In this document: piece after piece, positions 3,401-31,015 of the stretch
Layout of the letters: the number at the start of each line of letters is the position of its first letter
Numbering within the stretch: the first letter of the stretch is position 1
From: Dacryopinax spathularia
Lineage: Eukaryota; Basidiomycota; Dacrymycetes; Dacrymycetales; Dacrymycetaceae
Assembly: GCA_037974965.1 (NCBI GenBank)
Contig: JBBPFI010000019.1
Span: 62,001 to 126,000 of the forward strand
Direction of reading: 5' to 3'
Length of the DNA: 64,000 nt
Translations under genes and position numbers: made by a program
The notes under the pieces: generated by a model
Databases searched by the model: none
Told to the model about the DNA's origin: nothing
The model's input: the letters and a program-made list of their open reading frames with translations, nothing else

Positions 3401-6400
3401 GCTGACTTAGTCATCAATACTCAAATTCGTTAAAAAAAATTTTTTTTGTACGAAGTGATGTTACAAAAAATAAGACATCCCAATTAAGTTAAAATTGTGA
3501 GAGTGTTCGAGCCGTGTGCTGGGAAACTCGCACGCACGGTTCCGAGGGGGGGAAAGCTTGGAAAGGCCTACCTATCCCAATTTTCACAGCTGCTACGTGC
3601 GCTATTTAATTATTTATAACCTTGAGTGTAAACACTCCATCTCAGTTCTTTCCTATAAAAAGAAATTATAGTAAACTTAATACTACAAAACAGAATCAAA
3701 TTATCTTATGAGAACCTAGACAACCATCATTCAAAATATATACTGGTATTTTTACAAAAATCATAAGAAAGAGTTGAAATTTAAACAAATTAGATATTAG
3801 TATTATAATAAGTATTTTATTATCAGATGGTTGATTAAAAAAAAAAAAAAGGATGAAATCCAAAAATAGGATTTAAACAATCAATTAAATATCAACACCA
3901 AAACTATTTTTGATTTGTCTTTTTACATTTATCTTATTTTTGTTCCTACTTTGTTTTATACAAAAAACAAAGTAGGCTTTTAACTTTTTCTGTGAAAAAG
4001 TTAAAAGCAGGTTATCCTTGAAAGGTAAAAAATTTTAAACGGGGTTCAGTCTTTTATGATTTAGAAATGCAGACTCGACAATTAAATTGTCTAAATATTA
4101 TTTATTATATTATGTATGAAAATAAAAAAAGTGATAAAACCAGATTTACTTATCTATTTTAATGATCCTGTACTAGCTCTTTTCTTTCTTTTTAAAATTA
4201 AAAAGCAAGATTTTCATTTCTTTATTTTTTTAAAAAATAAAGAGAATTATGGGAGATGGTGCAAAAAAAGAAATAAAGGTATTACATTATGTACTGATAG
4301 CTTTTAATATAAAGAACTCATAATATTAATTAATATCTTAAAAATGAAATATGATATAAATAGTACAATTCATAATGAAAAAGGAAAACCTAGAATATAT
4401 ATTAACAAAAAAGAATTTAATAAAGTTTTTTTACAGATAAAACCTTATTTTGTACAAAGTATGCTATATAAAATTTTGTAGAGATGTAAAGCATTAAACT
4501 TAGGTAGAAATTGTAAAATTTCACTGACAACAGCATGTTTTCCAAATTTGTCTTCAAAACACAAATAAGGATCTATAATATTATATTATTATAGAAAAAA
4601 AGGATATATAAGTTTATTTTTAAATAAAATTGGGTATTCCTGAGCTACGTTTTTCATGGTAATAATAAGAAACAATAGGCTAAAAATTGTAGCAGATTTT
4701 TAGTAGAAAGAACCTCAAACGTTTCATTACCTAACAAAAAATTAATAGGTTATAAATAAGAACTTAGGATTGACCTAATATTAAAAATTTAGGTTAACGG
4801 AGTTTTCATAGTAAATAATAAAAATTATAATTATATTAATTCTATAAGAATTAGTATATTATTATTAAATTTAGTTTTAATGATAAGTTTTTAATTTCAA
4901 TATTATTGAAGGGAAACAGCCTTAAAAATATTTTTTTTTAAGGGGGAGAGCCGTATGCGATGAAAGTCGCACGTACGGTTCGGGAAAGGCTTTTTAATTA
5001 AGGTTTGTTGTAAATATTTTTTCAACAAGCAGGATTAATCTGCTATTTCACAATGATAATCGCTGTACCTACTGGAATCAAAATTTGGGCGACCGTTCGA
5101 GTGTATGCGAAAGTGTTGTTTTCAACCATAAAAACAAACAGCAAAGCGGAATTTGCTGAAGGCCTTAGTGCTTACTTCAATTCAGTGATGATAGAAGGAC
5201 CAAAGCCTGCACTAAAAGGAATTATGAGGGTATTAGCTGACGCAAATTTTTGCAGACCCAAGATAAATTTCGAGGCCATCGGATGTTCAAGGATGAGGTT
5301 GAATTACCAAAACTCAAGTAACTTCGGGAGTGATCACGCCTATCTATGGCTTCAGCTGCTACATAGATATCTCGGTCCCTTGAAAGTGAAAATTTATTTC
5401 AAAGGCATTTCCACGACTGAGACGTTACCAATAGCATTTAGGACATGTTACAAAAGAGTCTCCTTATTCATCAAATCAAGAGTCGCATATGCTACCGGTG
5501 AAGTCTTCAATTCTAACATAAGTCAAATTGGAGATGGCAGAGGGTCCGTAGTACCAACTTTTTTCGTTGGAAAGGGACCTAAACACCTTTTGGGATTAGA
5601 CTCAATAGTCAATCAAAGAAGGTCATACGTTACTAGAAGCAGAGTCAATAGTCTGGTTCCTGTACAGGAACAACCAGAACTACCGAAAGGACTATTTATT
5701 CTTGCGAAACATTGGCAAATTTGCCACCAAAACCCTAATCGAGTTTTCTATGATCTAAGAGGTATCTTGAAACAAGAATCTATCTGGTTTGCTGCTTACC
5801 TAAAACTAAAAAGCAATAAAGGATTTACAACGCAAGGTTACGATGAAAATAGCATTGACACACTAACCAAAAAAAGAATCTTAGAACTTAGAGAAGCAGT
5901 ACTAACAAATAAATTCTCATGGGTTGATGTTCGAGAAATCATGATTCCAAAATTTGGTAAACTAGGAAAATTTAGACCTTTAGGTATTCCTTCGATAAAT
6001 AATATACTTGTTCAGGAAGTTATTCGTACTATTATAGAGCCTATCTTTGAGCTTAACTTTAGCAACCTTTCACATGGATTCCGTCCTAATAGAAGTTGTC
6101 ATACAGCTTTAAAATGGATGAATACAAAAATGAAAGATTCAAATTGATTCATAGAAGGAGATAGTAAAAGTTATTTTTCATCTTTTGATCATAAAATTCT
6201 TATGACTATTCTTGAAAAGAAAATTCAAGACCCTACTATTCTAAGACTAATTCGAACTGGATTAAAAGCTAAAGTTATACAAAAAGATAAGTCCTTTTAC
6301 TGACCAGAAATTGAAACTCCACCTTTTGCCCACAGCGCAAAAGCAAGGGAAGGAGGTATACTTAGCCCATTACTATCTAATATTTATCTAAACGAATTAG

Positions 6401-9400
6401 ACCTTTTTATGGAAAATTTATGTAAACAGTATCAAGGTAACGTTAAACCTAGCAACAGGAAAAAAAATTCTATTGCTATAAAATTACTAAGATCTGGTAA
6501 TAAAGGTAAATACTTAAGATCGAAAATGGCTAGTAGAATACCAAACGAAGTCAACTGTAAATATATTAGATTTGCAGATGATTTTGTAATAAGTGTACTA
6601 GGTCCGCGCTTAATGGCCGTAGAAATACGAGACAAGGTTAAGGATTTTCTGAAAAAGGAATTAAATGTAGAACTTAGTCTAGAGAAGACTAGAATAACAC
6701 ACATTTCCCAAGGAATCGAATTCCTCGGTTATATCTTCAGTCAAAAATATGTAATCATAAAACAATCTTATGCTGGTACTATTGTCAGACGTAAAATGAT
6801 AATATCTACATTAGATGTTAATATGAAGAGAGTAATCTCTTGACTTGCCGAAGCTCAATTTTGTGATGGAGATGGTAACCCTACACCTAATTTCAAATTT
6901 CTTAGATTACCACAATCACAAGTCAACCTTAAAGTGAATTACATTTTAAGAGAGCTAAGTGAATGGTGATCCATAGCTCGTAATCGGAGAGCCGCCATAG
7001 CCAGAGTAGCATATATCTTAAGATACTCCGTAGCAAAACTATATGCTGCTAAGTTCAAACTAAGATCTGTTGCAGCTGTATTTAAAATCGGAGGAAACGA
7101 TTTGAGCAAATCAATCGGAACTAGAATTAAATCAGTAGTAGGAGCTAAGGAAAAACAGATAACTCAAGGTTTAAATAAGAAAATACCAGGTATTATTTTC
7201 GATCGATATTATAAAATTCCTAAACCTAAAGCAAATAAACTAAACCCTGATTGGAAACCCAAATATTTGAAAATTTTAGAAAATAACCTCAATTTAGAAT
7301 CCTTAATTGACGAGGTATGAAACTTAAAACGATAGAATGCGAATAATCCGTTAGCGGCAATGCTCTGGTGATTCGAAAAGGCCTTGCTATTGCTAAGTCA
7401 AGGAGCACCTTGTTATATCTGTGGATTTTTCGACAATGTACAAATCCATCACGAAAAAGCCATGAAAGATATAGCTAAATCAGCTAACAACGCCTATAGA
7501 CATAGGATTGCTATTGTACGAAAACAGATTCCATTATTAGGAAAGATCATCTCGCACTCTACAGGGGTGGGCTAACAAACCCAACAAATTTCCGATGAAG
7601 CCAAGTAACGTTGGAGAGCCGTGTGATGGGTAACTATCTTGCACGGTTCGGTGGGAGCTCGAGCTCCGTTATCGAGACTAATGTGTTAAATTAGTGATAA
7701 CTACAGTGTCGTTCGACCCAATTTTCATGGCTGTCATTCTCCTTAAGCAAGAGTTATATGGCCAACATATTTATAGAAAATAATAAGAATATAATAAAAA
7801 AATATAAACGTATTATCTTTATATAAACAACTTCCTAGATAAAATAGAAATTATATTAAAGAAAATAATGAAATATAAATAATAGTTTCTTTAAAAAATT
7901 TAAATAATACCTCATAACACATATGACCTACTAACTATCAAAGATTTAGCACTTTTCTTGCTTTTTTAACTTAAAAAAGCAAGATCTTTATTTATTTATT
8001 TTTAAAAAAATGAAGGGATGGTGATCGTTCTTTCAAAGATAAAGAACTAACACTAAATACACAAAGTTATAGTATTATAGAAAATATAAGATTAATAAAT
8101 GTTATTATTATTTTATTTAACTGTAAATCTACCATCTTTTTGCAAAGAGCAGTACCAACTATACATATCTCAGAAAAATTTTTTAAAAAACTTGTTTCAT
8201 TATTATTACCACATTTAATACCATCTATACATTATAAATTAATACATATTTCACGCGTGGCGACCCGTGTGGCGACCCGCGTGGCGTAGAAAAAAAAATT
8301 AAAATAGATAAATAATTTTTTTATATAAACTATGAATATGCGGGGCAAACTCGAAAAAACTCTTTTTATTAGAATAGAAAATAATAAAAAGACAATTGTC
8401 GAACTAAATCACAATCAGGAAACTATTGTGTAAAAGTGTAGAGGCCATACGCCCCACTATTTCTAAATAATTAAATTATTGTTTTAACAAAACAATATGA
8501 ATTTTGTACGAAATAGTAAGACATGGTCCAGACCGCCGGTAACGGTTTTTGAGATTTAACCCTCAAATAAAATAAATTGAATAATATACTATTATACTAT
8601 ACAATTCAATTTATTGAGGTAATAAGCCAGCTTTATCTGAAATGATTAAAGGCCCAACCCTGAGCAACTTGCTATGGAGGTTCAATTAGATTTACAGCAC
8701 CAATGATTTTTGCTTTAGGTTTCCTTGCTTTATTCACAATCGGTGGATTAACAGGAATTGTTTTAGCAAATGCCAGCTTGGATATAGCATTACACGATTC
8801 GTATAAAATTTTTTATAAATATATTTTATTAATCTATAAAATGATTTGTAATTCTCAGTTAAATATTTCATATTGTGTTATAATTCCTATTATAAATAAA
8901 GATCCTTTATCTATAATGTTAAAAGAAAAAGAAAATCTTGAAGAGGAGTATTTAGAACAATTTTGAGTAGGTTTATTAGAAGGTGATGGTACAATCACAG
9001 TTTATCTAGTTGAAAATAGAATTCAAATAAGGATGGCTATAGCTATTTTAAACAAGCCTAAAAACTTCGAAATGTTAAAAATTCTTCAAAGTTCAATTGG
9101 TGGAAGGGTAGCTATAGAAAGAAATGATAAATACGTAACATGAATAGCTGATAACAAAAAAGATTTAATAAAATCTTTTGCTATATTAGCTAAATATCCT
9201 TTAATAACACCAAGGAAACAAGCACAATTAAATTTTGCTTTAAACTGCTATAAAAATCCAGATTTATTTTTATTAAATTTCAAAGAAAAAAGAGACAATA
9301 AATATTTAGATACCGCTAATATCAGAATAATAACAAATTACAAAGATATACCTTATTTTTCAAGTTGATTATCTGGATTTATAGAAGCAGAAGGAAACTT

Positions 9401-12400
9401 CTCATTAATATTAAAACAAAATAAAACTATAAAGAAATGTAGTTTTAGTATAGGTCAAAATTCTGATATAAACATATTAGAATTAATTAAAAACTATTTT
9501 GAAAGTAAAAACAAAATTACACAAGATAAAAAAGTAACAAAATACATTCATTATCGTATATCTCTCTCAGGACCTTCTTCTAGATTAAACATTATTAATC
9601 ATTTTAATGAATATCCTCTATTAGGAGATAAACAATTGTCATATTTAAATTGATTACAATATTTTATTTTAAGAAATAAATTATAAAATTAGCTGTCGTG
9701 CTCTCACATTGTAATAACGGTAAAAATCTTTCTCCAACCACGTCTAGCTATAGCGCAAAATAAAAAAGATTAATACACTATTTTTTAAATATTTTTTTTC
9801 CACGGGTATGCAAATTTAAATAATAAATAAAAATAAAGAGTTAAGAAAATACCGTGAAATATTATTTTAGAAGATTTAAGTATAAAAAATATTTTGTAGA
9901 GACTAAACGCAATGTTGTTAATTATATCCCCTTAAAAGATCATTACAGAATTTATAGTCCAAGCAATAAATTAATTTATTGTTTAAAGATACTGTCTTAT
10001 TACGTCGTCGCTCAATTGGGCCATAATAATATTTCTTCTATTAATTATTATTTTGCAACTGACTATATGCTGGAAACTATGTTTTTAGACTACTGTTTAC
10101 TATTTATTAATATGTTTTATCTTTATAATTTAGATGCCAGTAGGATTATGTAAAATATTTATTCATGTTTTTTAAATAGTCAAAATAACAGTATGTCTAT
10201 GGATATTTCACCCATAAATATACAATCAGCAGAAAACTATAAAGAATTCTCAGAGACTGCACGTCAGTTACCTGATACAGAAGAGTATAAGTTTTGAAAT
10301 TGATTTGCAGGAATTTTAGCCTTCATTTTTTGATATTCATCAAATAAATGAAGATCTTGATTTATTTTATATTTATAATAAAATCAAGAACGGAGATGGT
10401 AATTTTGACATTAGAAATACTTCCACAGATAATAAAAGAGTTCTTAAACAAATAAGAATAAAATTACATAATAGAGATATTCGAATATTAACAAGAATAA
10501 AAAATTACTTACATATTGGAAGGATTAGAACAGTTAAAAATAAACCATATTCAATGTATATAGTTTCCACAAAAGAAAGTATGGCATATATTATTAAAAA
10601 TATAAACGGTTTAATCAGATTAAAAGTACCTAGTTTTAAAGAAGCTTGTTTGTTGTACAATATCAAATATATTGAAGCCAATTATAATATAGGCTTATAT
10701 ATCCTTATTTTTCTGGATTAGTAGATACAGATGGAAGTATAGTCTTCAATTATGCGGGTAATAGAATAGAATGTAATTTAGAATTTCAATTTAATGAATA
10801 TACTTCTAAATTAAACTTCAATAATACTATATTACATTCTAAGCCATTTATAATTAAATGTCAAAAATCAAGTAAAAGTTTACATCCATTGCATTCAAAT
10901 TTCAAAACGTTAATACTATGCTATTTATATACGATTATTTTAGGCATAATAGATTATATTGTGATATGAAGTTTTATAGAGTAACAAAAATTAAACCATT
11001 TATAGAAATTAGAAAATATAAAACAAGTCCTAAAAATAGTGTAGAACACAAAATATACTCTCAATTTGTAATAGATTGAATAAAATATAAGAATCCTTTA
11101 TGATATAAAGTTCCTTTTGTAAATAAACATCTATTACAAAATAATAAATAGCATAGTATTACAGGTAAAGATACAGTCCACACCTTTTTCTAAAAAAAAA
11201 AGTTGCATTTCCATTATGTATTATCAATGGGAGCTGTTTTTGCATTATTCGCTGCATTTTACTTCTGAACACCAAAAATCATTGGAAAACCATATAATGA
11301 AGCATTAGCTAGAATACATTTCTGAACATTGTTTATAGGGGTTAACAAAATAAAGGGAAGTATTTTTGAAGTAGGTAAAAGATTGTATAGTAATAATCCA
11401 AATGGAAGTTCACATTTTAATTCTGAAGAGTTTATAATTTTTTTTAATAATCTTAAACAAGATAAAAAAAATATATAAAGAATTAAGAAAAAAATCAGGT
11501 GTATATATTTTTATAAATAATATTACTAATCAATTATATATAGGTAGTAGTATTAATCTTACTAAAAGAATGGTAAGTTATTATTATTATACCAATTCTG
11601 ATAAATTTTCCAAATTAGTTATAATTAAAGCTATGAAAAAATATGGTTTGGAAAATTTTTCTTTAGGTATATTAGAATTTTGTAAACAAGAACCTAAAAT
11701 TTGTTTAGAATTAGAACAAAAATGAATAGATTTTTACAAACCTAAGTATAATGTTTTAACTATAGCAGGGAACTCATCTGGTTTCAAACATAGTGTTGAA
11801 ACAATTAATAAATTAAAAAAAATATTAAGTGGAAAAAATCATCCTAACTTTGGTAATGTTACTTCTTTTGAAACAAAAAGAGCTATTAGTGAAGCAATAA
11901 AAAACTTTTATTTCACTAATAATCACCCAAGTAAAGGTTTGAAGGGTAAACTATCTCCTCAATACGGTATAGGTGGTGAATTTGTATTTTGTTATAGTAA
12001 AAAAGGTAAAGAGTTCATTTTTCCTTCCATTAATGCAGCTAGACAACATTTTAAAGTCAGATGAACTAAAATAAAAAAGAATCTTGACACTCAAGAATGA
12101 ATAACTCTTCAAGATGAAAAATGAATTATACAATCTATCCCCAAACAAAAATAAATCAAAATTAGCCCCTCTCAATCCTTCTATATGCTGGAAAAATTTT
12201 AAGGCTTAAGTACATATTTAATAAGTAAAAATCTTGAGTATATCTAAATAATCAGCAGGAAACCAAAAGATATTGATATCTAAATCTAAGTAGGATCCCT
12301 AGAGACTATACGAAGGAAATTATATTTAAATAATTAAGATATAGTCCATATATGTAATTTAACTTTCTTCCCTTTACAAAACCAATTATTGTTGGGGGAT

Positions 12401-14061: not shown

Positions 14062-14110
14062 ACACCGCTACTTAATATTACTAATACACATGATATTAGT
14101 AATTTTTATT

Positions 14111-16696: not shown

Positions 16697-16816
16697 ATTT
16701 ACTATATTTATTTTCCTTGTCTTAACCCTAGAAAAAAGATTAACCCCATATAGTATATTTAGATCCTAAAAATTGGAACTTCAAAAAGCTTTTATATAAA
16801 ATACAAAGAGATATCA

Positions 16817-18568: not shown

Positions 18569-19230
18569 CTTAGTTAAAAATAATCTTTCGGGTTTAACTA
18601 ACCTTGTTGGTTAAAAAAAACCAACCTAATCTTGTTTTAAAAAACAAGATGGTTACTAATCAAGGATGTAAATCTTCTTGATTTTTAAAAGATTGAATTA
18701 ATGGAAATAATTTCAAAATTTTAGGATAGTTTATTATATTTTTAGTATGAAAAAAAATTTTTTTTTAAAGATATCACTGAATATCGAATAAATAAATCTA
18801 GGTTCAATATCGTATTAGGAACCTCATCAATAAACTGAAATGAAAAGAAATAATCAAACGATATCCCTAGATATCAAATTTAACAAAAAAAAAATAATTA
18901 AATTTTTAACTTTAATTTTTTTTTGTAAGGATTTTGATTTGATAAATTTTCTCAAAATTCATTAGAGTATGCCTTAAATTAGATTTGAGTATTTTTATCT
19001 AATTAATTACCATCTACTCGTTGCTCTTTTACACTTTAATTTAATTTTTAATAAAAATGATTTAGATCCACGGTTATCTATTTCGTTTTCACTTATTTTA
19101 TAAATTATTACACTACATGATTGATTAGATCATCCACAGATTTATTTTCATAAATAGTTTGGTACTATAAATTTTAAGATATTCCTGGAATTTGGTAATT
19201 CACGTCAATGTCATGTTTTCCTAAAACATT
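18569..19230 (-). mobile_element. group I (IC-type) intron 4 of cox3, cut by the gap
   Basis: Core at about 19225-18925 on minus, with the same conserved blocks as rns introns 2 and 3 and cob intron 4: GTTTTAGGAAAAC, CAAATTCCAGG, AATCATG...TCTAAATC, AAAGAGCAACGAGTAGATGG. Downstream the start of a LAGLIDADG ORF is seen (PWLVT at about 18660), interrupted by a hairpin element at 18604-18651, then lost in the gap. Confidence 0.7.
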
Positions 19231-22200
19231 AGTCAACGAAATGTCAATTATAGTATAGCAGATTCGAAACCTAAATGATGAGAATCTGTTAAATGATATT
19301 GTAATAATCTAAAAAAACCTACAGCTATAAATAATGTTCCTACAATAACGTGTACAAATTGTTAAAAATTAAGAATACTTTTTCTTAATATTATCTATAT
19401 ATTTCTATATAGTTCAGACTATGTCTTAAATATTTTTTTTAAGACCGGCTAAATCAGTCCTGCTTTTAATATTTGAGGGCGTGAGATAATATTTTTTTTA
19501 TTTTTTAGTCGTTGAACCTTATAATATTAACATTGTTAATATTATATTGGCTGCACATTACCCATTAAGTTTAGGAATTTCATGCAATTAACCCTCTGTT
19601 CTTTCAATTCAATAATTTATTAAAAATAGGATAAAATTTAAAATTTATAAGTTTTCTGTTCTAAAAAAGATTTTTTTTTAGGTTTTTTTGCCACGCGCAA
19701 AATTTTTTTAATAATTTTTGAAATCAAAGGAGGTCTGTATAAAATCAAATTTATAATTTTTATAAATTTCACCTTTAATTAAGCAAGATTTAATTGTAGC
19801 TCGATTTAATTTTAATTTTTTACTACACTCAGTAATACTAGAGTAAATAGATTTATTCTTTAAATTGTCAATGACTAAAACTTTTACTTTATCCGACACC
19901 AAATTTCTAGTTCCTCTATAAAATCTAATTCCATTTTCTATACTATAAGGAGAAGGTATTTTTTAATAACATTTTATATTTTTCATCAAAAACTAGATCT
20001 GCTTTATTATTTATATTAGAGATAGATTTTAAATTAGTAGATAGTCTATAATTATTTCATTGACTTGTAATTTCATTAAATAATAAAACACCTTCAGGTA
20101 AGTTATAATAACCATAGTATTTTATGTTTAATAAAATAATTCAATCTTTAAAATCATTTTTTTTTTTTGCTTTTTAATATATTAGAAAAAAGTGGCTCAA
20201 TAACTTGTTTTAAAAAATGTATATTAGTGTAATCTAGATTAACAGTAGAATTTGAATTAATTCTATTAGAACGGGGTTTACTAATGGTAATCTTACCTGC
20301 TTTAAAGAACTTAATTAAATTATTAAATAAAGGAAGTTTTTTAATATGATTTTCGTATTTTAGTCTTAAATTATTTCCATTCACAGAAAATGAACCATCC
20401 CCATCTGTTATTTTTTGTAAAACAAAAAATGAACCTAAGTTTTATTTTTAAATAAAACTGGTAAAACCCCCTAATCAATATTTATTAATACTTATATTAT
20501 CATTAATATAAATTGGTTTTTTTTTGTCTTCAATTAGTTCATTATAAATTTTTATTATTTTTAATTTACCTTCAGCAGTAAGGTGTTCTTTATTTTTAAC
20601 TAAATTAACAGCTTTTTCACGCCCGGACGAGAAAATTAAAAATTGAGAATATTTAGAACTTTTTAAAGAAACACAATTTAAAATAGGTATTATACAATTT
20701 ATCAATGAATCTTTATTATTTATAAAGAAATTACATCTATTTTTTGTTTGCAAGTTTGTATACAAACTTAAAAACCTGACTTTTTAAAAAAGTCAGGAAA
20801 TTGAAATTTTACCACATCCTAAATTTTTTTGTATATATTTTAATACTTCTAAATCATCAATATGTAAACCTATTTGTTTTCAAAAATTATTATAATAATT
20901 TTTAAAAACCTACATAAAAATTATTTTTGTAGGAAAAGTTAAATTTAAACTTTTATAGTTATTTGATTTAAAATACTTTAAACTTATATTAAAATTTCCT
21001 TCAGCGTTCTCGATTTTTATTTTTAAGAATAAATCGAGATCTTTATTTTTTTTGTTCAAAAAAAAATAAAGGCTATAAATCCAGTTAATCAATGTATAAA
21101 ATTTAAATTAGGTTTAACTTCATTTATAGAGTTATTAAAATTAGGAGAAGTTCATAGCTCCTTAATTAAATTTTTCTTGATCCTTTCGGTTTGAAAAGGA
21201 ATTGTTACGCTAAATTTCCGTTTATTTATTTTTTCTGTGTGAATAATATTAAAATTGAAAGGGGCTACAAAAGTTAACCCATGAAGACCAGTTGAAGCAA
21301 AGAAAACACTTCCATAAACAGAGTCAGCAAAACTAAAAGAAGCTTCACTATATTCGACATATTGTAAATAAGTGAATAATATAGCTAATATTATAGTTAA
21401 AAAGGTTCCTATGATTGCACCGCTTCTATTCCCTGCTATTAAAGCATGATGCCCATATGTAATAAAAGCCAATAATTTAAAAATTATCCGACTGTACATT
21501 AAGCCTAGTTCTATTTAACTAGACCCATCAAAGAACCAGTCTGTAGCAGTTTTTAATAACTGACGGTCTTGATTACTAAATAGAAATATATAATATTAAA
21601 CAATTTATTGTTATTTAGTTTATTATTGACCGTTAACTTCGATGTCGCTGTTAAACATTGAATTTAAAATTACAATGTTTAACAACTATATAAAATATTT
21701 CATATTCATTATAATCTTTTTTTTTTTTTTTACATATTATTTAGAATGCCTAATTTATATAACATAGTTGGTACTATGAAAGGTTTAGTTAGTTGAATTA
21801 AATGAGGCAAGGAACTTTTATTTATATATATACTATAATAATATTCTTCTCCTTGTTTATAGTGTTTTTTAAGAGTTTTTAAACTTCTATGTATTGAAAC
21901 TTTTAGTTGAAATTTTTTATTTAATAAATTACTTAAATATATTACTTCTGATTGAGTAAAACTATGAGTAGCAATTACAAGTCCTCTATTCTTTATATAA
22001 TAACCATCATCCATTATCCATATAGCTAAAGTTTGTGGAGTTAAAAATTCACCTACAAAATTTGGTACAACTTTTATACCATTGACATAAAAAGATTAAT
22101 ATATTCAATTTCAACTAGAAAAGCTGAATGTATTAAATCGTACGATTTGTCTAGTTAAATTTAAATTATTTAAGTTTGTACCTAAATCTAGTAATTTAGA

Positions 22201-24228
22201 TACAGCAGGTATAAAAACACTTTTATTTTTATAAAATGTACGAGTGTTTGAACGAGTTGTTACTATAGGTTGATCTTGTTTACAATATCCTAAATTAGAA
22301 ATTAAATTATGTAAATATAAAACATATTCTAAGTGTATAGCAGAATAATAAAATCTAAAAAAAGTCCCATCCCCACGCTTTTCAGCATAACAGTCCCCTA
22401 ATAAACCAATAATCAAAATAGCTAATATATTAAAATTATGTGGACCTATTCTATTATGAACAGGTGTTTTAGGTTTATTAAAAGGTAAAATAGCTAAAGA
22501 ACTAGTGATAATTTGAATATTAGAGGATATTTCACATTTGTGGCAATAAATTGAACATTTACCACTTGATAATAATAAGATTGTATTTAATAAAGGAATT
22601 CCAAAAGGATCTAAAGCTTCTATACCTTGAGGAGGCCAAGTACCAGCTATTTCAACAGTAGGTGCTAAACTAGAATGAAAATATGCTCAAAATACACTTA
22701 AAAAAGCAAACACTTCACTAACAATAAATAGAGCTACACCTAAAGTTAACCCTTTTCTAACTTCACTAGTATGATTACCTAAATAGGTCAAAGTTTGTTT
22801 CAATTTTTCAATTGAAAATGGACTATATCTTATTAAAAAAAAATTTTTTAATTTTACGTCTAGTCTCTGAGGAGTCCCCAGTCGCCGTGTGGGGTTTCCT
22901 GCTGATTGTCCCTATATCTTTGAGATTGAACATAAAGGTACTTAAAGCTTTAGGAGTTTACAGCATATAGTAAATTTTTAGAAGGCACCTATTTAATTTA
23001 TTTTTCTTTTGTTATTCATATTGGATTTAATAGCTAAAATTTTAGTTCGACCTTGTTTCGTTAAATGTTCTTTAGTTATTATCATATTATAAACTTTACA
23101 TCAGTCTAGGTAATCTTTATATTTTGTACCCTTTAAAGGGTATAGATTTAAATAGTTGATTAAAGGTTTTATAGATACAACAGAAGAAAGACTTATTGAT
23201 AATGCCTCTTTTTTTACACCCTCAACATTAGTTTTATATTGAGTCTTCATAATGTTACAATTTAAGTAAGACGCTATAAATTCCATAACTTTATCCAGAG
23301 ATAAACCTGAAGGTTTGTCGATAGCTCGTTGATCTATTCTAAATACTATATGAATACTTTCACTTCGGGATCTGATTCTGGAAGAACTTGTAGGCAAAGC
23401 CGTACGATAATTTATACCAAAATGACCATCTGCCTCAATCATCCCCGTAAATCAACTGTTTTTAAATAAAGGCGATGTATCTATTAGACTCTCATTTATA
23501 TTTATACTATACTTTGTATTGATAAAATGTATTAGTTGGTTAAATCTGATATTTTTAGGAGTTCTAAGTTTTCCGTGTACTAATTGGATGAATTTAATGA
23601 TCCCTTCTTTATCACCTATAATGTAACAAAGAGTGTTAGTTCGTTTTGAGAATCTACCAATATTGCCTAGTTCTTGTTGTATATAACTATACATACCTAA
23701 ATTGTTCATGTGCGAAGTAAAAACTATTCGAGGATTTAAAACTCTATTTAATTGAGTCTTACCTATTGAAGGTAAAGAAATATGACCATCTCCTTTCTCG
23801 ATTTATTATATATATAATAAATCGAGATCTTTATTTTCTAAGAAAATAAAGGCTAGTAAACCTGCTAAATAGTATCCTAAATTTAAGTCATCACTTTGAA
23901 GATTAGGAATATTTTGTTCTTCTTTACAATAAAGATCATAAGCTTTCTTTACTTCTGTTGGCGAAATAACGTTTGAATTTATAACTTTATAGAATTGAAA
24001 ATTTAAGGAACCTTCTGTTATAACATCTTTAAACCATAGTGTCATACCGAAAGTTGTCAATAAGAAACCTAATAACAACATATAGCCACTAAAAGGAAAA
24101 CCATGAAAGTAAGAAACCGCAGATACAGTAAGAGTTAATAAAGCAAAACTAGTTAATAAAGGTCACGGAGATGGTTCTACTAAATGATAAGGAAAAGGTT
24201 GATATTCTATTCTAACTTTTTGAATCAT
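18569..24228 (-). CDS. cox3: cytochrome c oxidase subunit 3, 3' end lost in gap
   Basis: Complex IV subunit. Exons on minus: 24228-24010 ([20 protein letters not shown]...[12 protein letters not shown]), 22800-22561 ([18 protein letters not shown]...LLLSSG), 21469-21277 ([14 protein letters not shown]...FASTGLHG) and 19354-19231 ([16 protein letters not shown]...[10 protein letters not shown] and on). The first three phases fit exactly. In the fourth exon the expected YWHFVD is reached only if one A of the AA at about 19248 is ignored, so there is either a sequencing indel or a frameshift. The last exon (VVWLFLF...) would lie in or beyond the 200-N gap. Confidence 0.93.
18604..18651 (-). repeat. 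hairpin element, family B (B1), in a LAGLIDADG ORF
   Basis: Two hairpins on plus: TTGGTTAAAAAAAACCAA and CTTGTTTTAAAAAACAAG, separated by CCTAAT. It follows codons for PWLVT, the same position as in the rns intron ORFs. What follows is cut by the gap. Confidence 0.75.
20409..20459 (-). repeat. hairpin element (C1) in cox3 intron 3 motif 2
   Basis: 51 nt, 17 codons, in frame but with two TAA. Hairpins on minus: AGTTTTATTT/AAATAAAACT and TTCATTTTTTGT/ACAAAAAATA. It lies exactly between codons for WLGGFT and TDGDGSF. Confidence 0.8.
20752..20797 (-). repeat. double hairpin element (C2) in cox3 intron 3 ORF
   Basis: On minus: CCTGACTTTTTTAAAAAGTCAGG is the first hairpin, then AAGTTTGTATACAAACTT the second. 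It sits in the variable region after KISIS, not at a motif. A near copy of the second hairpin (AAGTTTG...CAAACTT) is in the rns intron 3 ORF. Confidence 0.78.
21009..21073 (-). repeat. double hairpin element, family A (A3), in motif 1
   Basis: 65 nt, so it shifts the frame. On plus: CTCGATTTTTATTTT...AAATCGAG, then AT, then CTTTATTT...AAATAAAGGC. It lies between codons for LTGFI and NAEGNF of cox3 intron 3. Confidence 0.85.
21470..22560 (-). mobile_element. group I intron 2 of cox3 with LAGLIDADG ORF
   Basis: Lies between LLLSSG and AFITYGHH, ending ...TTATTG. The core at about 21575-21490 (CTACAGACTGGTTC, CTTAATGTACAGTCGG) matches the cox1 partial intron and cob intron 3. Here the ORF precedes the core; in cob it follows it. 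Confidence 0.83.
21730..22560 (-). pseudogene. LAGLIDADG endonuclease fused to cox3 exon, one nonsense codon
   Basis: A single frame from the exon to TAA at 21730. Motif 1 is [18 protein letters not shown] (about residue 50) and motif 2 is [16 protein letters not shown] (about residue 175), both typical of the LLGDG/WxMDDG subfamily. FSSWNWIY is followed by an in-frame TAA at 22096-22098 where this family normally has a Glu codon (NWIYESFY), so a single G-to-T change explains it. No hairpin element. Likely recently inactivated, or read through. Confidence 0.82.
22993..24009 (-). CDS. LAGLIDADG homing endonuclease with an in-frame hairpin element in motif 1
   Basis: Frame runs from the cox3 exon to TAA at 22993-22995, broken only by two adjacent TAA inside a 57-nt element. 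N-terminus [14 protein letters not shown], motif 1 YYLAGLL (element 23797-23853) [12 protein letters not shown], motif 2 [17 protein letters not shown] (about 23445-23395), C-terminal block [16 protein letters not shown]. With the element left out the protein is about 320 residues, complete, with both catalytic acids. No other damage is seen in about 1 kb, which argues that the element is either very young or is removed or bypassed. This is the best test case in the window. Confidence 0.85.
23797..23853 (-). repeat. double hairpin element, family A (A2), in motif 1
   Basis: 57 nt. On plus: CTCGATTTATTA...TAATAAATCGAG, then AT, then CTTTATTTTC...GAAAATAAAGGC. It lies between codons for LAGLL and KGDGHIS. 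In frame but contains two TAA. Confidence 0.88.
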
Positions 24229-24437: not shown

Positions 24438-24521
24438 GGATTTGTGGTAGAGTTGGTTTAATACGATCGTCTTGAAAACGATTACTTGAAAAAGTCATGA
24501 GTTCGAATCTCATCAAATCCG
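24438..24521 (+). tRNA. trnS: tRNA-Ser(UGA)
   Basis: Acceptor GGATTTG/CAAATCC, anticodon loop CTTGAAA (anticodon TGA), a long variable arm (ACTTGAAAAAGT) as in class II tRNAs, and T arm GAGTTCGAATCTC. The only tRNA on plus among its neighbours. Confidence 0.93.
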
Positions 24522-24593
24522 TTATAAAATAAAAGAATTAAAAATATTTATTTATTTCGTCTGGAAAAAAAAAAAGGTTAAGCGAAACTTAAT

Positions 24594-24668
24594 TAAGACT
24601 AAGGAGAATTGAACTCCTACTCTATCCATTATGAGTGGATTGCATTAACCAAATTATGCTATAGTCCT
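24594..24668 (-). tRNA. trnM: tRNA-Met(CAU)
   Basis: Acceptor AGGACTA/TAGTCTT, anticodon loop CTCATAA, T arm AGGAGTTCAATTCTCC. Initiator versus elongator cannot be told apart here. Confidence 0.88.
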
Positions 24669-24677
24669 TAAAATTTT

Positions 24678-24760
24678 TGAGCAGAGAAGGATTCGAACCT
24701 ACATAGGTAAATACCAATTGTTTTACAGACAACCACTTTAACCAATTCAGTCATCTGCCC
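24678..24760 (-). tRNA. trnY: tRNA-Tyr(GUA)
   Basis: Acceptor GGGCAGA/TCTGCTC, loop CTGTAAA, long variable arm (usual for fungal mitochondrial trnY), T arm AGGTTCGAATCCT. Confidence 0.92.
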
Positions 24761-24781
24761 TTACTATAAAATCTAATTAGT

Positions 24782-24855
24782 TGCTCCGAGACCGAATTGA
24801 ACGATCGCTCCCTACTGCTTCAAAGTAGTGCTTTAACCGGCTAAGCTACCGAAGC
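24782..24855 (-). tRNA. trnF: tRNA-Phe(GAA)
   Basis: Acceptor GCTTCGG/TCGGAGC, stem CTACT/AGTAG with loop TTGAAGC (anticodon GAA), T loop TTCAATT. Confidence 0.88.
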
Positions 24856-24917
24856 TTAACATATTTATGAATACTGTGAGAAATAAATAAATTTTACAAG
24901 TTACTAAAATAAAAAAT

Positions 24918-24942
24918 GCCCGCGTAAGCGCACGCGTGGCGG
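24918..24942. repeat. GC cluster in spacer
   Basis: GCCCGCGTAAGCGC followed by ACGCGTGGCGG. Related to the CGCCACGCG unit. Confidence 0.65.
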
Positions 24943-25072
24943 ATATAAAAAAAAATGTTTTATTTTCCTTTTTAATATCTTAAATTTTTAATTAAATAAA
25001 ATAAAAATGAATAATACTAACGTTATTTTAAATATAATTAATATAAAAATTGGTTTTAATTTACATATTACC

Positions 25073-25131
25073 CTTCATCTTTTTATAAATAAAATAAATG
25101 AAGATCTTACTTTTTAATTTTAAAAAGCAAG
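25073..25131. repeat. double hairpin element, family A (A8), intergenic
   Basis: CTTCATCTTTTTATAAATAA...AAATGAAG, then AT, then CTTACTTTTT...AAAAAGCAAG. Same layout and linker (GAAG-AT-CTT) as the copies in LAGLIDADG ORFs, showing that the element is not confined to them. Confidence 0.75.
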
Positions 25132-25456
25132 AAAACAGACAAAAAATGTGTGTTTTCTTTAAAAATTTTTTTACCTTAAAATTAAATGAGTACTATAACG
25201 TAATTCTTTTTTTTTTATTTTCAGCTTAAGAAAATAAAAAATAATTTCATACAATATATAAATTAATAAGATTATTATATTTAAAATTTAATAAAATAAA
25301 GGCGTTATGAAATCGTGGGCAGAAAACGTAAAAAAAGAACGAATAGTTAATAAATTTTCAATGTTTTGTTTAAGTGACCAGAGATAATAAATTAATTTTT
25401 TTTATTTAAGTAAATTTAAATAAAAAGTAAAAAAATTAGAATTATTACAATTAATT

Positions 25457-25529
25457 TGGAGAAAAATAGAATTGAACTATTATTTATGTATTGCAAATAC
25501 ATTAGATTAACCATTTATCTGATATCCCC
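25457..25529 (-). tRNA. trnA: tRNA-Ala(UGC)
   Basis: Acceptor GGGGATA, stem ATGTA/TACAT around loop TTTGCAA gives anticodon TGC, T arm ATAGTTCAATTCTAT. A shifted reading would give GCA (Cys), but trnC is found elsewhere and the five-pair stem supports TGC. Confidence 0.78.
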
Positions 25530-26679
25530 TTTTCAAAATTTTAACTTTTTTTAGTTTTATCATAAAACAAGAAAAATAGAACTAAATCTAATACTTTTAT
25601 TATTAAATTTAATATATATACTAACGGGGTTGTTATTTTTTTTTTTTTATAATGCAGCTGCACCTTCCAGTACAGCTACCCTGCTACGACTTCATCCCAA
25701 TTATAAAATTAGATTGGAAACACCTTCTTAAATAAGATTTATAAGTTTATTTTAGTAATATCTAACTTAAATATTATAAATCCTAAATTATTCTTTAATT
25801 CTAAAATTAACCTTAAAGATTAATTAATAAATTAAAGAATTATATAAAGTTTTATTCTTAAAAGCACAACTTCGGCTAACTCTACTTTCAGCACGTGACG
25901 GACGGTTAGTTCATTACGGATTATCTATTCACCGTTGCGTAATTATCAACGATTACTCGAAATTCCTGCTTCATGTTACCGAGTTTCAGGTAACAATCTG
26001 TATTCATCTTTTTTTTAGTGATTAGCTTTTCCTTTAATACAGCAATAATTTTTTAAAAATTATCCATAACACGGTTTTGCGTCACATTGTAAAAGATCTT
26101 GTGGCACATCTATCATGGTTATCAAATTTAACTAAAAAAAAATTTTTTTTTTTTCGTAAAAAATTTATTTTTCATTTTCATAGCCTTTTATATTTCATTT
26201 TCTATGCAAATTCATATTATTTATTATTTTTTTTATTTTATTTAAACCTTCTATTCTTTCTTGAAAAAAAATAAGTATTTTTATTTCTCCCGTGGGGAAA
26301 GATCTTCACTTTAAGTAATAAAGTGAAGAAAATGATCTTTATTATATACCATTTCTGCTATTAATTTAAAATCTAAAAAATCTAAATATTTTACACCCAT
26401 AATAGGATATTTTATAAAAAATGGTATTATCCTTTTTTTAATTATATCTAAATTCTTAATTTGTAATAAGATATTACCTTTAATTCTTGATTTATAAATA
26501 TATTTACTATTTTTTATATGATCTGACTCTAACAATAAATAATCTCTTATACCAAAAATTAAAAGTTCATCTTTAATATGTAGGTTTGTACCAAATAATA
26601 AACGAATTCTAAAGCCTAATTTTACATGTTTAGCTGTTTCTATTGAAACAGCAAAACTAGAGTCTCCAGAAATAAATCC

Positions 26680-26736
26680 TGTTGTGTTTTTTTTAATAAA
26701 AAAAACCAACCTAAGCTTGTTTTTACAAAACAAGCT
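26680..26736 (-). repeat. double hairpin element, family B (B4), in motif 2
   Basis: 57 nt, 19 codons, no stop. On plus: GTGTTTTTTTTAATAAAAAA...CC, CTAAG, then CTTGTTTTTACAAAACAAG. It lies between codons for WIS and GFISGD. Confidence 0.85.
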
Positions 26737-26982
26737 GGAAATTCAAAAAGGATTAGGAATTCCTTTAAATATGTAATTTGGTTTCTCTACAGTTTTAATA
26801 TCTGTGAAAGACACCTTTAATTCTTCAGTTAAACCTTTATTAAGATTAGTTTTTAAAGAAATAATTTTGTTTAAACCATTTAAAGTTAAATGCTTTTTTT
26901 CTCTTATTAACATATAAGATTCTTTAAATAATAAATAATCAGATTGTTTTCTACTAATTAAAGGATATTTATCCTTAAAAAA

Positions 26983-27030
26983 AAATGAATCTTTTTTTTT
27001 TAAGGCTTTTAAGTTTGATGTTTCAAACTT
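26983..27030 (-). repeat. double hairpin element (C3) in rns intron 3 ORF
   Basis: On plus: CCTTAAAAAAAAA...TTTTTTTTAAGG, then AAGTTTG...CAAACTT. In frame, in the region between the two motifs. Confidence 0.75.
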
Positions 27031-27270
27031 GCAAGCAAAATGTTTTATAATAACTTCTAATTCTTTAATATTATCTACTCTATATAAAACACTTGTTTTA
27101 CTATTTATGCGAACATTCCCCACTTTTAAGGTTTCTTTAATATTTTGTAATAAATTATAATCTTTAATATGAATATGTATAGAAAAGCTGGGTATGACCC
27201 GTCATCCCAATTTTAAACTAGAATCACGATATATAGAAATAATAAAAGAACCTTCTGCATCACTAAACCC

Positions 27271-27328
27271 CGTTGGTTTTTTTTCTAAAAAAAAAAACCA
27301 ACCTAATCTTGTTTTGGAAAAACAAGAT
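27271..27328 (-). repeat. double hairpin element, family B (B2), in motif 1
   Basis: 58 nt. On plus: GTTGGTTTTTTTTC...AAAAAAACCAAC, CTAAT, then CTTGTTTTGGAAAAACAAG. It lies between codons for PWFIT and GFSDAEG. Confidence 0.87.
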
Positions 27329-28725
27329 GGTTATAAATCAAGGATTTAGATTATTTTTAATTATCATTATTATTTTTATTTTTGTTTATTTGTACTTTGA
27401 TTTTTACTACGGTTTTGAAAAAAAATTTTAATATCTATTCGTTCGAAAATTTTTAAAAATATTTGTGCGTACTATATTTTTATTTAGTAAGGATTTTGAT
27501 TTGATTACTATTTTCATAGTTCATTAGAGTATATCTTAAATTTGATTTTTTCTAATTATCAAATTAACTATCATTTACTCGTTGCTCTTTTACACTTTGA
27601 CTAGAACCAAGTCAAAGTGATTTAGATCCGCGATTACCTATTTCATTTTATTTCATTTTTTGAATTATTACCATACATGACTTATTAGATCATTCAATCT
27701 TTTTTTTTTAATTTTAATTTTTTATTTTTTAAAATTTGGTATCAAAAATTTTAAGATTTTCCCGGAATTTGATAGTTAGAGCCAATTAAGTGTTTTCCTA
27801 AAACACATATCAGCCCATTCCATTAAGGCCATAACGACTTGTCGTCTCCCCAATTGTTTTCCCTCATCCATTATGGACTTTACCATTATTAACAAAAAAA
27901 TTAATAATAAGGATTGCGTTCGTTAACTGGAACAAACCAGACTTCTTGCGATACGAACTGGCAACAGCCATGCAACACCTGTAACATGATTCTAAACAAA
28001 GTTTGTAAAAAAAAAACAAACTTATGTTGAATCCTAAAAATAAGTATTTTTTTAAAAATACATAAAAAACATAGGTAGTATTTTTAGTTGTTATACAAGA
28101 AATGGTAAGATTTTACGCCATTTCGCCAAATTTATCATTACTAGTTTAATAATATAAAATTTTTTTTATAATCTTTATTAAATATCAATAGTTGATAGCA
28201 TTAAGTATAAATATAATATGATTTATTATTTCCTATGCCACCCACGGCTAAAAAAAAAAATAAAAATAATATATTTTTTTTTATTTTTTTTTAAGTATTT
28301 TCTTGTTTTTTTTTATTTTTTTTTTTATTTTATAATTTATTCTACCCTTGCCTTTTAGAATTCATACTTTGTTTTAATTTCATTATTTGATTTAAGCCGT
28401 TTTCAGTTAAATGTTTGGATTCTTTAATTATATTTGCTGCTTCACATCAATTGTTAAAATCTTTTTTTTTAATACCTATAATATTATTATTATTAAAAAA
28501 TGGAATAATAATATTATAAATATCTGAAAATTTTGTTACAGAAAAATAAATACTTCCTCTGTCTTCTGTTATATATCCACAATTAAAATATGAAATAAAA
28601 CTTTTTAATAAATTTTTATCTCGTTTATGTTGGCTAATACTAAATTTTAATTGTACATAGTTTTTGTTTTGGGATTTATTTGTAATAATATTTATAAAAA
28701 AACAAGCTTCACCTGAGACAAAACC

Positions 28726-28785
28726 TGTTGTGTTTTTTTTATTAAAAAAAAAACCAACCTAAGCTTGTTTTGAATAAAACAAGCT
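28726..28785 (-). repeat. double hairpin element, family B (B5), in motif 2
   Basis: 60 nt, 20 codons, one TAG. On plus: TTTTTTTTATTAAAAAAAAA with flanking pairs, CCAACCTAAG, then CTTGTTTTGAATAAAACAAG. It lies between codons for WMS and GFVSGEA. Confidence 0.85.
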
Positions 28786-29125
28786 GGACATTCATTGAGG
28801 GTTTGGTATTATAGAATTTTGAATGAGTGGACGAGGTACTGGAAAACAATTAAGAAAAGTATTTTTTAAAACAGACGTAAGGCCTAAATTCATAGAAGCT
28901 CTTATATTAATTATTTCCGCAATACCATTAACTGTTAAATGTTTCTTAGTTTGCATTAATATAACAACATTCTTAAATAGTAGATAATCTGCTTTTTTCT
29001 GTGTTATTAAAAAATACTTATCAAAATGAGGGATTACTTTAGAAGTTATATTTTTCAAAGATCTTATAGAAAAAACACATCTTTGTCTTTTTTTATCTAT
29101 TCTAATATTACTAATATTACCTTTG

Positions 29126-29145
29126 CCCTTGGCTTCAGGCAAGGG
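29126..29145 (-). repeat. 20-nt hairpin (C6) in rns intron 2 ORF
   Basis: CCCTTGGCTTCAGGCAAGGG, GC-richer than the other elements. A half copy (ACCCTTGCC) occurs at the ORF end (about 28343). Confidence 0.7.
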
Positions 29146-29282
29146 TCGAAATAATTTCTAATTATATTTAATAATTCTAAATCTTTCATATGTAAAGAAA
29201 TCTCAAATGTAGGTTCTATTGCTCATCCTTTGTGGAGTGAAGTTAATTTTCGTATTTTGATCATAAATGTACCTTCTGCATT

Positions 29283-29344
29283 CTTGATTTGTAATATTAA
29301 TATTACAAATCAAGATCTTTATTTTTTAAATAAAAAATAAAGGC
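29283..29344 (-). repeat. double hairpin element, family A (A4), in motif 1
   Basis: 62 nt. On plus: CTTGATTTGTAATATT then AATATTACAAATCAAG, AT, then CTTTATTTTTT...AATAAAGGC. It lies only 9 nt from the family-B element of the same motif. Confidence 0.88.
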
Positions 29345-29353
29345 AGTTATACC

Positions 29354-29405
29354 TGTAGGTTTTTTTATAAAAAACCTACCTAATCTTGTTTTAAAAAAAC
29401 AAGAT
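29354..29405 (-). repeat. double hairpin element, family B (B3), in motif 1
   Basis: 52 nt. On plus: GTAGGTTTTTTT...AAAAAACCTAC, CTAAT, then CTTGTTTTAAAAAAACAAG. It lies between codons for SWFIT and GIT. Confidence 0.87.
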
Positions 29406-30145
29406 GGTTATAAATCAGCTTAAATTCTTATCTAATATCATATTGTATTTATTTTTATGGTTAGTATAAAAAAATCGTTTTAAAAAATTTTGTTTAGAAA
29501 GGATTTTGGCTATATAGTAATTTTCATAAACTAATAGATCACACCTTAAATTATTTTTCAATAATCAACTACCATCTGTTCGTTGCTCTTTTACAAATTC
29601 AATATTAAATCTTTTACCACTTAAATTTTTATATTTTAAATTTGAAAAAGGTAAAAGTAATGAATATGATTTAGATACGCGATTGCCCATTTTATTTTCA
29701 TAAATCTTCTGACTTATTACTGTATCTGAATAATTAGTTCAGAGTAACATAATATTTATTTGTTGTTTTAGTATCAGAAGCTTTAGGGTGTCCCCGTAAT
29801 TTGATAGTTTACACCCAAAAAATGTAGATTTCCTAATTCTACTTTCGGGTTATCGTATTAAACAACATGCTTCACTTCGTTTGCTCCGAAACCGACTAAT
29901 TTTTTTGATTTCGCTTTTGCAAGTATAGTGTCAAGGCGGAATGCTTAACGTTCTTTTTACATCGACACCAATTCAATTTGAACTAGCGATCTAGCATTCA
30001 TCGTTGACTGTCAGGAGTTCCTGGGTCTCTATTTGGAATAGGTAGACTTTCTCAAGTTTTCCCCTCCTAAGAACCGGGCAAGCGACTTTCACCGCACACG
30101 GCTCAAGCATGATACTTACTTTTTTATAAATTAAATTTTAGTTTT

Positions 30146-30201
30146 CCTGAAAAAAATATTTTTTTTCAAGTTTGTAACTTTTGATTTCAAAAGTTGCAAA
30201 C
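30146..30201 (-). repeat. double hairpin element (C5) at end of rns intron 1 ORF
   Basis: On plus: CCTGAAAAAAATA...TTTTTTTTCA, then GTTTGTAACTTTTG...CAAAAGTTGCAAAC. It follows codons KKNNIKI of the LAGLIDADG ORF. Confidence 0.75.
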
Positions 30202-31015
30202 AATCTTTATATTGTTTTTTTTATAACCTAATAAAACTTCATTCATATTTAAATACTCAGTTAAAGATTTTAAATCTTTTTTACTTGTTATATTTAATAA
30301 ATAAGTTGTTTTTCTAGTATCTCTAGTACGAACTAATACTTTTGGTCCAAATTTAAAATAATCCTTAATATAGTATATAATTTTTTCATCAGTATGTTCA
30401 ATAAAAAATCTAGGTATTTGCTTATTTTTTTTTGATATATACGTAAAAGAAGCTTCACCATTCTTGATTTTTATATTAATATAATAAATCAAGATCTTTA
30501 TTTTTTAAATAAAAAATAAAGGTAATAAACCCTCCCAATCAGTTTTTCCAAAATTCAATTGTTATTTGATTTAAATCTGGAATTATTTTTTCAATTGCAA
30601 TATTTGATAAATTTTCATCTTTTTTTAAGTAGTTTATTTTATTTAGAATACATCATTTTATTTGTTCTAATCGTGTAGATTGATGACTGATTAATAAATT
30701 ATTTTGAGAGGTGCTTGAATGAAAAAAATTATTTATTAATCATTTTTAATCTTCATATTTTGCAATAGATAAGTGAACTTCATTTCTATGCTCATACTTA
30801 TATATTATACCTCTATATCCTAATTTACTATGTATTTCTTCTATAAGTAAAGTATCTCTTATATGTAAACTTAAATGAAAAGAAAATTGTAGTGTATAAT
30901 GTGTAAAAATCCCTTTACTATTAGTTCTTTTTACTTTTGTTGTTTGAAATTTTCCTTCGGCGTCAATAAAGCCAATTAATCATTGTTTAAATTTTTCATC
31001 GTTTCAAATTTTTAT
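30187..31015 (-). pseudogene. LAGLIDADG ORF in rns group II intron
   Basis: Motif 1 is intact: WLIGFIDAEGKFQTTK (about 30985-30940), followed by IFTHYTLQFSFHLSLHIRD. Motif 2 is NWLGGFI, element 30463-30523, NGEASFTYISKKNKQIPRF, then VRTRDTRKTTYLLNIT and a short C-terminus ending in another double hairpin (30146-30201). The frame is open between motif 1 and the element in table 4. It is of the group II-resident LAGLIDADG subfamily. The element shifts the frame (61 nt). Confidence 0.72.
30463..30523 (-). repeat. double hairpin element, family A (A5), in motif 2
   Basis: 61 nt. On plus: CTTGATTTTTATATTAATAT...AAATCAAG, AT, then CTTTATTTTTTAAATAAAAA...AAAGG. It lies between codons for WLGGFI and NGEASF. 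Confidence 0.86.

Follow-up and report, generated by a model that had tools for sequence, protein, structure and literature searches.

Short hairpin-forming sequences of fungal mitochondrial DNA include the double-hairpin elements (DHEs) of Allomyces, which were reportedly described by Paquin et al. in 2000. Here, small double-hairpin elements that interrupt the LAGLIDADG endonuclease genes of Dacryopinax spathularia were analyzed in a stretch of 64,000 nt (the window), which corresponds to positions 62001-126000 of contig JBBPFI010000019.1 (C19; assembly GCA_037974965.1, 29.2 Mb, 24 contigs). The window belongs to a fungal mitochondrial genome of about 141.5 kb, in which TGA codes for Trp. 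The atp6 product of this genome is 78–85% identical to four proteins and 63–68% identical to those of named Polyporales and Thelephorales.

The closest described cases are summarized from the available excerpts of the respective papers. The mitochondrial DNA of Annulohypoxylon stygium contains 44 short insertions of 12–106 bp (most of them 30–60 bp), many of which can form hairpins, 27 with a single hairpin. Some are multi-copy and differ between isolates, three each lie in LAGLIDADG_1 and GIY-YIG domains, and they were proposed to hinder intron movement (PMC6140425). The DHEs of fission yeasts were sought as sequences with more than 75% GC, between genes or in rRNA genes (PMC10085805). In Magnusiomyces capitatus, translational bypass elements (byps) are found in 12 of 15 protein genes; an unused codon at the A site is involved, and take-off and landing codons are imperfectly matched in several cases (PMC5009743). 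For GC42 in S. cerevisiae, 82 of 89 positions are intergenic, with AG as target nucleotides (PMC4478555). No description of codon-precise hairpin families in homing endonuclease genes was found in the available text of the open-licence literature (including PMC4618339, PMC6609731 and PMC7218506). An earlier first-pass annotation of this DNA knew of no precedent for motif-specific targeting. This is partly superseded by the short, often hairpin-forming insertions in LAGLIDADG_1 and GIY-YIG domains of A. stygium, for which the excerpts mention no targeting of particular codons (PMC6140425).

The elements of D. spathularia probably constitute families of mobile, AT-rich double hairpins of 46–83 nt that insert precisely and in sense orientation into conserved LAGLIDADG coding DNA. 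The insertion points are defined, the reading frames are restored when the elements are left out, the same codons recur in divergent hosts, and the elements resemble one another more than their flanks do.

C19 is 146,554 nt long and overlaps itself over 5 kb, resulting in a circle of 141,479 nt; most of contig C24 duplicates C19:1-20143. An inverted repeat of about 10.3 kb (C19:29961-40259 and 80569-90905, the latter at window positions 18569-28905) has copies that differ by 55 gap openings and 2 mismatches, that is, almost only by gaps. Since homopolymer lengths differ between these copies, some frameshifts may be sequencing errors. The numbers of the host open reading frames (ORFs; HEG1, HEG2 and so on), the core-gene names and all motif names other than those of Pfam and Rfam were assigned by reading or recall.

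Element families and their structure

In the circle, 20 elements were delimited, 16 of them inside the window. They fall into the families A (six copies), B-I (seven), B-II (three), C (three) and D (one), and three additional A'-type copies have approximate ends. Adjacent double hairpins were counted 18 times in the circle, at 14 distinct places, with four of the 18 being second copies within the inverted repeat; each of five order-2 Markov control sequences contained none. The locations of the elements agree with the first-pass annotation, and their number is above chance. Folding of 13 of the 20 elements gave z-scores of −2.85 to −8.87, with 0–2 of 200 shuffles equally stable. The 20 delimited elements have a GC content of 11–29% and lengths of 46–83 nt, and all of them are inserted in sense orientation.

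The consensus of family A is C-[CTTTATTT..AAATAAAG]-AT-[CTTGATTT..AAATCAAG]-A (57–74 nt, six copies), and that of family B-I is C-[AKCTTGTTTT..AAAACAAGMT]-TAG-[GTTGG..CCAAC] (46–60 nt, seven copies, one of them divergent). The three B-II copies start with CTAC or CTGAC and are 51–63 nt long. Family C comprises copies of 60, 71 and 83 nt, and family D a single copy of 63 nt. Because MAFFT left the element arms unaligned, pairing in the arms was tallied inwards from the outer ends and no covariance model was used. In family A, two-sided pair changes were found at pairs 4 and 9 of hairpin 1 and pair 3 of hairpin 2; pair 9 of hairpin 2 is mostly unpaired. The element length is a multiple of 3 in nine of the 20 elements, which is close to chance, and not in the other 11. 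If read through, 17 of 20 elements would add a stop or a frameshift; the remaining three (B2, B8 and D1) do neither and are translatable.

Within the assembly, exact matches to the core words of A and B are confined to C19. The A core word was also matched by 21 stretches of viral contigs and by at least 118 of prokaryote genomes; as none of the 139 listed matches carries either complementary arm, they were rejected as chance. For the core word of B and for one of C, viral contigs gave no match. Relatives of the endonucleases were found in viral contigs at 2 and 1 distant loci. Outside the element families, a perfect 15-bp hairpin lies at window positions 16229-16260 in a region read as intergenic. 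A GC-rich palindromic cluster (CCCACAGCTGCCCAGGGC...) is present at C19:131645-131729, outside the window, and is unlike the AT-rich elements, with which a classic GC cluster type may coexist.

Insertion codons and target sequence

LAGLIDADG motifs are split by 13 of the 20 delimited elements, namely by all six A and all seven B-I copies. In all six A copies, the D/E/N codon of the motif is cut after its first base, and excision of CC...AGA between the first two bases of this codon (G and A in five copies, A and A in the sixth) gives the joins ILDGDG, FIDAEG, LLEGDG, ITDAEG, FINGEA and LIDGEG. The first-pass annotation had set these joins before N or K and was one base off, as G/A joining restores D, D, E, D, N and D. 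Its lengths for the five A copies of the window were exact. With slashes marking the insertion point, these lie at 10320..10389 on the forward strand (70 nt; HEG10, FAGIL/DGDG, D codon split at phase 1) and, on the reverse strand, at 21008..21072 (65 nt; HEG8 motif 1, LTGFI/DAEG), 23796..23852 (57 nt; HEG6, LAGLL/EGDG), 29282..29343 (62 nt; HEG4 motif 1, GIT/DAEG, in the same motif as the B element at 29355-29406) and 30462..30522 (61 nt; HEG3 motif 2, GGFI/NGEA). The ORF of HEG6 is in frame with a stretch read as a cox3 exon, and in the HEG3 region group II intron matches adjoin a match to small-subunit rRNA.

In B-I, a Ser or Thr codon is cut in seven of seven copies. Six of these stand directly before the first Gly of the motif, largely as first annotated (before Gly-Phe), but the seventh is found in the Thr codon before the Asp of GFTDGDG. 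Within the window, all B-I copies are on the reverse strand: 29355..29406 (52 nt; HEG4 motif 1, WFI[T]/GIT, brackets enclosing the cut codon), 28727..28786 (60 nt; HEG4 motif 2, WM[S]/GFVSGE), 27272..27329 (58 nt; HEG5 motif 1, WFI[T]/GFSDAEG), 26681..26737 (57 nt, in frame and without stop; HEG5 motif 2, WI[S]/GFISGD), 18606..18651 (46 nt; degenerate motif of HEG9) and the divergent copy at 20407..20460 (54 nt; HEG8 motif 2, GF[T]/DGDG). HEG4 motif 1 and HEG1 motif 1 each carry one B and one A element.

The other seven delimited elements lie outside LAGLIDADG motifs, in other conserved endonuclease segments (three in KxHL, four elsewhere), so that the target extends beyond one motif of these genes. 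The Leu codon of a C-terminal KxHL segment is split by all three C elements; the one in the window is found at 26259..26329 on the reverse strand (71 nt; HEG5, KDH[L] near the C terminus). The D element, 26973..27035 on the reverse strand, interrupts HF/DKYPL of HEG5 (63 nt, in frame and without stop). Two B-II elements on the reverse strand belong to HEG8 (20876..20932, 57 nt, LTF/QIGLHI; 20746..20796, 51 nt, ISIS/KNRCNF), and the third, on the forward strand at 3946..4008 (63 nt, in frame and without stop), splits YFC[S]/GYPWK in an ORF adjoining a LAGLIDADG_2 match. Two A'-type double hairpins on the forward strand, both with approximate boundaries, sit at the LALxL..GDG segment of LAGLIDADG_2-like ORFs: 4184..4244 upstream of a LAGLIDADG_2 match, and 7957..8015, where the segment (LALL..GDG) was read by eye. 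The third A'-type copy (25073..25131, reverse strand) is intergenic, between tRNA-Phe and tRNA-Ala. On the reverse strand, a small, GC-richer hairpin insert at 29122..29145 breaks the frame of HEG4 at NYFD/GNI (boundary by eye), and a further double hairpin of no assigned family (30148..30201) lies at the C-terminal end of HEG3.

Altogether, 11 elements split a LAGLIDADG_1 motif in the window (five A, six B), which together with the two A'-type copies makes 13 where the first-pass annotation had counted at least twelve. Its claim of a mobile family recurring at the motif is supported; a target restricted to the motif is too narrow a description, given the seven elements in other conserved segments. 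By a hand count, the circle has about 35 LAGLIDADG_1 motifs, and 11 of these carry elements. Seven of the 14 distinct double hairpins fall into the neighbourhoods of Pfam domains, which cover 16.2% of the circle (p = 0.0035); since the elements disrupt the domains, this number is too low. Reading of the sequence places 11 of the 14 inside LAGLIDADG ORFs, one being the degenerate HEG9. The double hairpin at 11189, in the open leader of another LAGLIDADG ORF, was not counted, and those at 11604 and 131645 lie elsewhere.

When the 141 kb were searched with a 22-nt profile of the A sites, ten unoccupied places scored no more than 3 bits below the weakest of the occupied sites, and all ten are LAGLIDADG motifs. 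A shared target word, as the first-pass annotation had proposed to look for, thus exists and is the coding DNA of the motif itself. With the B profile, four of the five best unoccupied places are LAGLIDADG motifs. An empty site within the genome is motif 1 of HEG2, which agrees at 17 of 18 nt with the flanks of the element in HEG5 motif 1. A DNA word suffices as an explanation of the placement, though it need not be the cause.

Mobility and condition of the host genes

The exactness of the joints was analyzed against homologues of HEG5 and HEG6. Without its four elements HEG5 (26165..27375, reverse strand; a double LAGLIDADG ORF) has 458 homologues, and HEG6 (22994..24222, reverse strand) without its single element has 787; the ends of both hosts are approximate. 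Among the 120 listed for each, identities range between 41 and 63% and between 50 and 60%, respectively. No gap was found within 2 residues of the HEG5 joints in 58 of 58, 120 of 120, 120 of 120 and 108 of 108 covering homologues, and of the HEG6 joint in 120 of 120. Within 8 residues, the numbers are 55 of 58, 119 of 120, 120 of 120 and 104 of 108 for HEG5, and 119 of 120 for HEG6. The boundaries of A and B were taken from the family consensus. The Glu restored in HEG6 (E60) is invariant in eight aligned sequences. Homologues that end near HEG5 residue 213-218 were considered as carriers of insertions and rejected, as their tails show no sign of one and they are most simply taken to be incomplete.

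The identity between elements over aligned positions is 83–96% in A, 84–98% in B-I (six of seven copies) and 92–93% in C, with up to 23 gap columns in the alignments. Their 45-nt flanks share only 17–27 (A), 12–28 (B-I) and 19–30 (C) matches, and the hosts HEG1, 2, 4, 5 and 8 are 28–40% identical to one another. Similar elements with dissimilar flanks in divergent hosts point to repeated insertion and not to copying of genes, which agrees with the first-pass view that the elements were not multiplied by copying of one ORF. In a tree built with 30 of the 120 listed homologues, HEG5 falls into a clade (support 99/98) with 27 homologues whose proteins, where they span the sites, continue uninterrupted by elements. 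Outside this clade stand HEG1 and HEG4, which are 36–37% identical to HEG5, yet they carry near-identical B elements at the same codon.

An old origin, with immobile elements inherited along with duplicating endonuclease genes, would suit the relatedness of HEG1, 2, 4 and 5 and the separation of B subtypes between motif 1 and motif 2 in HEG4 and HEG5. It is very unlikely, as HEG5 is nested among homologues that pass through its sites uninterrupted and the A elements remain closely similar in unrelated ORF flanks. Hardly credible is random insertion with survival only in dispensable ORFs and no target preference: random placement along ORFs of about 300 codons would not be expected to bring all six A elements to one codon position and six of the seven B-I copies to another, even if endonuclease ORFs are dispensable, no element was noticed in core exons, one A' copy is intergenic and several other endonuclease segments are hit as well. 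Random positions, which the first-pass annotation had named as speaking against its mobile family, were accordingly not what was found.

A number of points weigh against mobile families with precise insertion. Only the hosts HEG5 and HEG6, with five joints, were aligned to homologues, and since the boundaries of C and D were set with a view to an intact frame, the fit of these joints is partly by construction. Mobility is deduced from paralogues and distant homologues. The joining of HEG1 and HEG4 in the tree was flagged as long branches meeting. The B subtypes follow position (ATCTTG at motif 1, AGCTTG at motif 2), so that for B conversion or inheritance among related ORFs is possible. Single A copies have broken pairs (pairs 5 and 9 of hairpin 1, pair 8 of hairpin 2). 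When each site was left out of its profile in turn, 2–25 other places in the 141 kb (both strands) scored as high for A, and 9–76 for B. As the profiles were trained on LAGLIDADG sites, targeting of DNA and survival in dispensable ORFs are inseparable in them, and the HEG2 site, near-identical to the HEG5 target, stands unoccupied.

What is recognized would be nucleic acid, namely a stretch of DNA of about 20 bp that encodes LAGLIDADG. The probable agent would be an organellar endonuclease or, likewise working in trans, a group II reverse transcriptase, and copying of the element would not include flanking sequence. Each insertion would interrupt its host gene, and most hosts are therefore taken as silenced. 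Some hosts, HEG5 above all, look still maintained, which would need removal of the elements from RNA or their bypass.

The condition of the hosts differs. With its four elements, HEG5 keeps 41 of 41 near-invariant columns (106 homologues: median 1.0, minimum 0.8). When joined, HEG5 is open over 323 codons, HEG2 over 345 codons and HEG8 (20150..21300, reverse strand, ends approximate), across four elements and with the upstream exon included, over 341 codons; a frameshift of HEG8 follows further on, in a homopolymer. Of 77 near-invariant columns, HEG6 keeps 69, a level that is matched by one of 120 homologues. Outside the elements, HEG1 is interrupted by a TAG and one frameshift, HEG3 by a TAA and HEG10 by frameshifts; HEG9 is degenerate, and HEG4 (28360..29450, reverse strand, ends approximate), with three elements, contains the small hairpin insert in addition. 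After joining, all 16 motifs of HEG1, 2, 3, 4, 5, 6, 8 and 10 retain the acidic residue, which we take to be the catalytic position. No element was noticed in core reading frames; the six ORFs read as core genes are open throughout, and this negative does not include an exon-by-exon search of the split genes.

Precise, mini-intron-like removal of the elements from RNA, which would leave the hosts functional, is rather unlikely. It would explain why G/A joining yields the canonical residue E60 in HEG6, the lack of decay in HEG5, the open frame of HEG8 and the retained acidic residues. The families share no common splice consensus, however, HEG6 has lost near-invariant columns, HEG1, HEG3 and HEG10 contain stops or frameshifts outside the elements, HEG9 is degenerate, and core genes, in which a general removal machinery would tolerate elements, have none that was noticed without an exon-by-exon search. 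A byp-like jump of the ribosome over elements that stay in the mRNA seems quite improbable. Insertion in coding sequence, the hairpins and the 11 lengths that are not multiples of 3 would fit it, as would the five B copies in Thr codons, in which ACC at take-off is followed, by reading, by ACA or ACG before the resume codon. The B copies in Ser codons show no such match, and in family A the landing codons AAG/GAG match the take-off codons TTA, ATA, CTA, ACT, ATT and ATA in none of six cases; bypass would here place N or K where HEG6 homologues have E. The junction codons of A and most B copies are GCC, ACC or TCC, which are not unused: the six ORFs read as core genes contain 15, 6 and 8 of them, respectively, in 2,495 codons, although GCC, with one occurrence in 2,314 codons, is rare in the endonuclease set without elements. 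A Magnusiomyces-like bypass, which the first-pass annotation had named among known systems, is thus not supported for family A, and no core gene was noticed to carry an element. Taken together, the sequences would give silencing by interruption and skipping about even chances. That each family recognizes endonuclease coding DNA, spreads from gene to gene and is skipped by RNA removal or ribosome jumping, so that host endonuclease and intron stay mobile, is a tentative reading, with less than an even chance of being correct.

Neighbouring features and comparison with known systems

Several other features of the genome were observed. Three copies of about 319 nt, about 95% identical and read as a cob 3′ exon, are located on the reverse strand at window positions 37038-37356, 38732-39046 and 42057-42375. 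A stretch named nad6-like by reading occurs twice with 90.6% identity over 425 nt (C19:120583-121005 and 125722-126141; in window coordinates 58583-59005 and from 63722 onward). GIY-YIG matches are found on the forward strand at window positions 11495-11752 and 12919-13155, the second containing stops. Outside the window, just before the inverted repeat, two long forward-strand ORFs of 1,412 and 951 codons (C19:22418-26653 and 26799-29651) are possibly plasmid-type polymerases, which is a guess. A plasmid search using an ORF read as a reverse transcriptase gave no match.

If the mobile families are correctly interpreted, one selfish DNA inserts itself into the catalytic motif of another, and the genome provides a many-copy natural test of how tiny mitochondrial hairpin elements choose their targets and move. 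For target choice and movement of DHEs and GC clusters, the available text of the literature offers proposals only. Hosts with four insertions, if still expressed, would imply an undescribed route of RNA removal or bypass.

In comparison with the described systems, as far as the excerpts of their papers go, the elements share with the A. stygium insertions that they are hairpin fragments within the range of 12–106 bp, some of them in endonuclease domains. They differ in that 20 elements occupy repeated endonuclease codons, whereas three of 44 lie in LAGLIDADG_1 in A. stygium and no recurrent codon target is described in those excerpts. Like byps, they are short inserts that break coding frames, but no core gene was noticed to be hit and the junction codons are used. 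The yeast GC clusters such as GC42 are likewise short, palindromic and mobile and have a short target word; unlike these, the elements have no AG target-site duplication, A showing none and B sharing at most a C (AC in the Thr copies) at both ends. With the DHEs of Allomyces and fission yeasts they have in common two adjacent stem-loops of about 50–80 nt, the mitochondrial location and putative mobility, for which near-identical copies in unrelated flanks were found here. They are distinct from the fission-yeast DHEs in their low GC content and in their position inside endonuclease ORFs, apart from one A' copy. The elements of D. spathularia are a real, precise and recurrent variant of the fungal mitochondrial double-hairpin or small-inverted-repeat kind, with a preference for conserved homing-endonuclease coding DNA.

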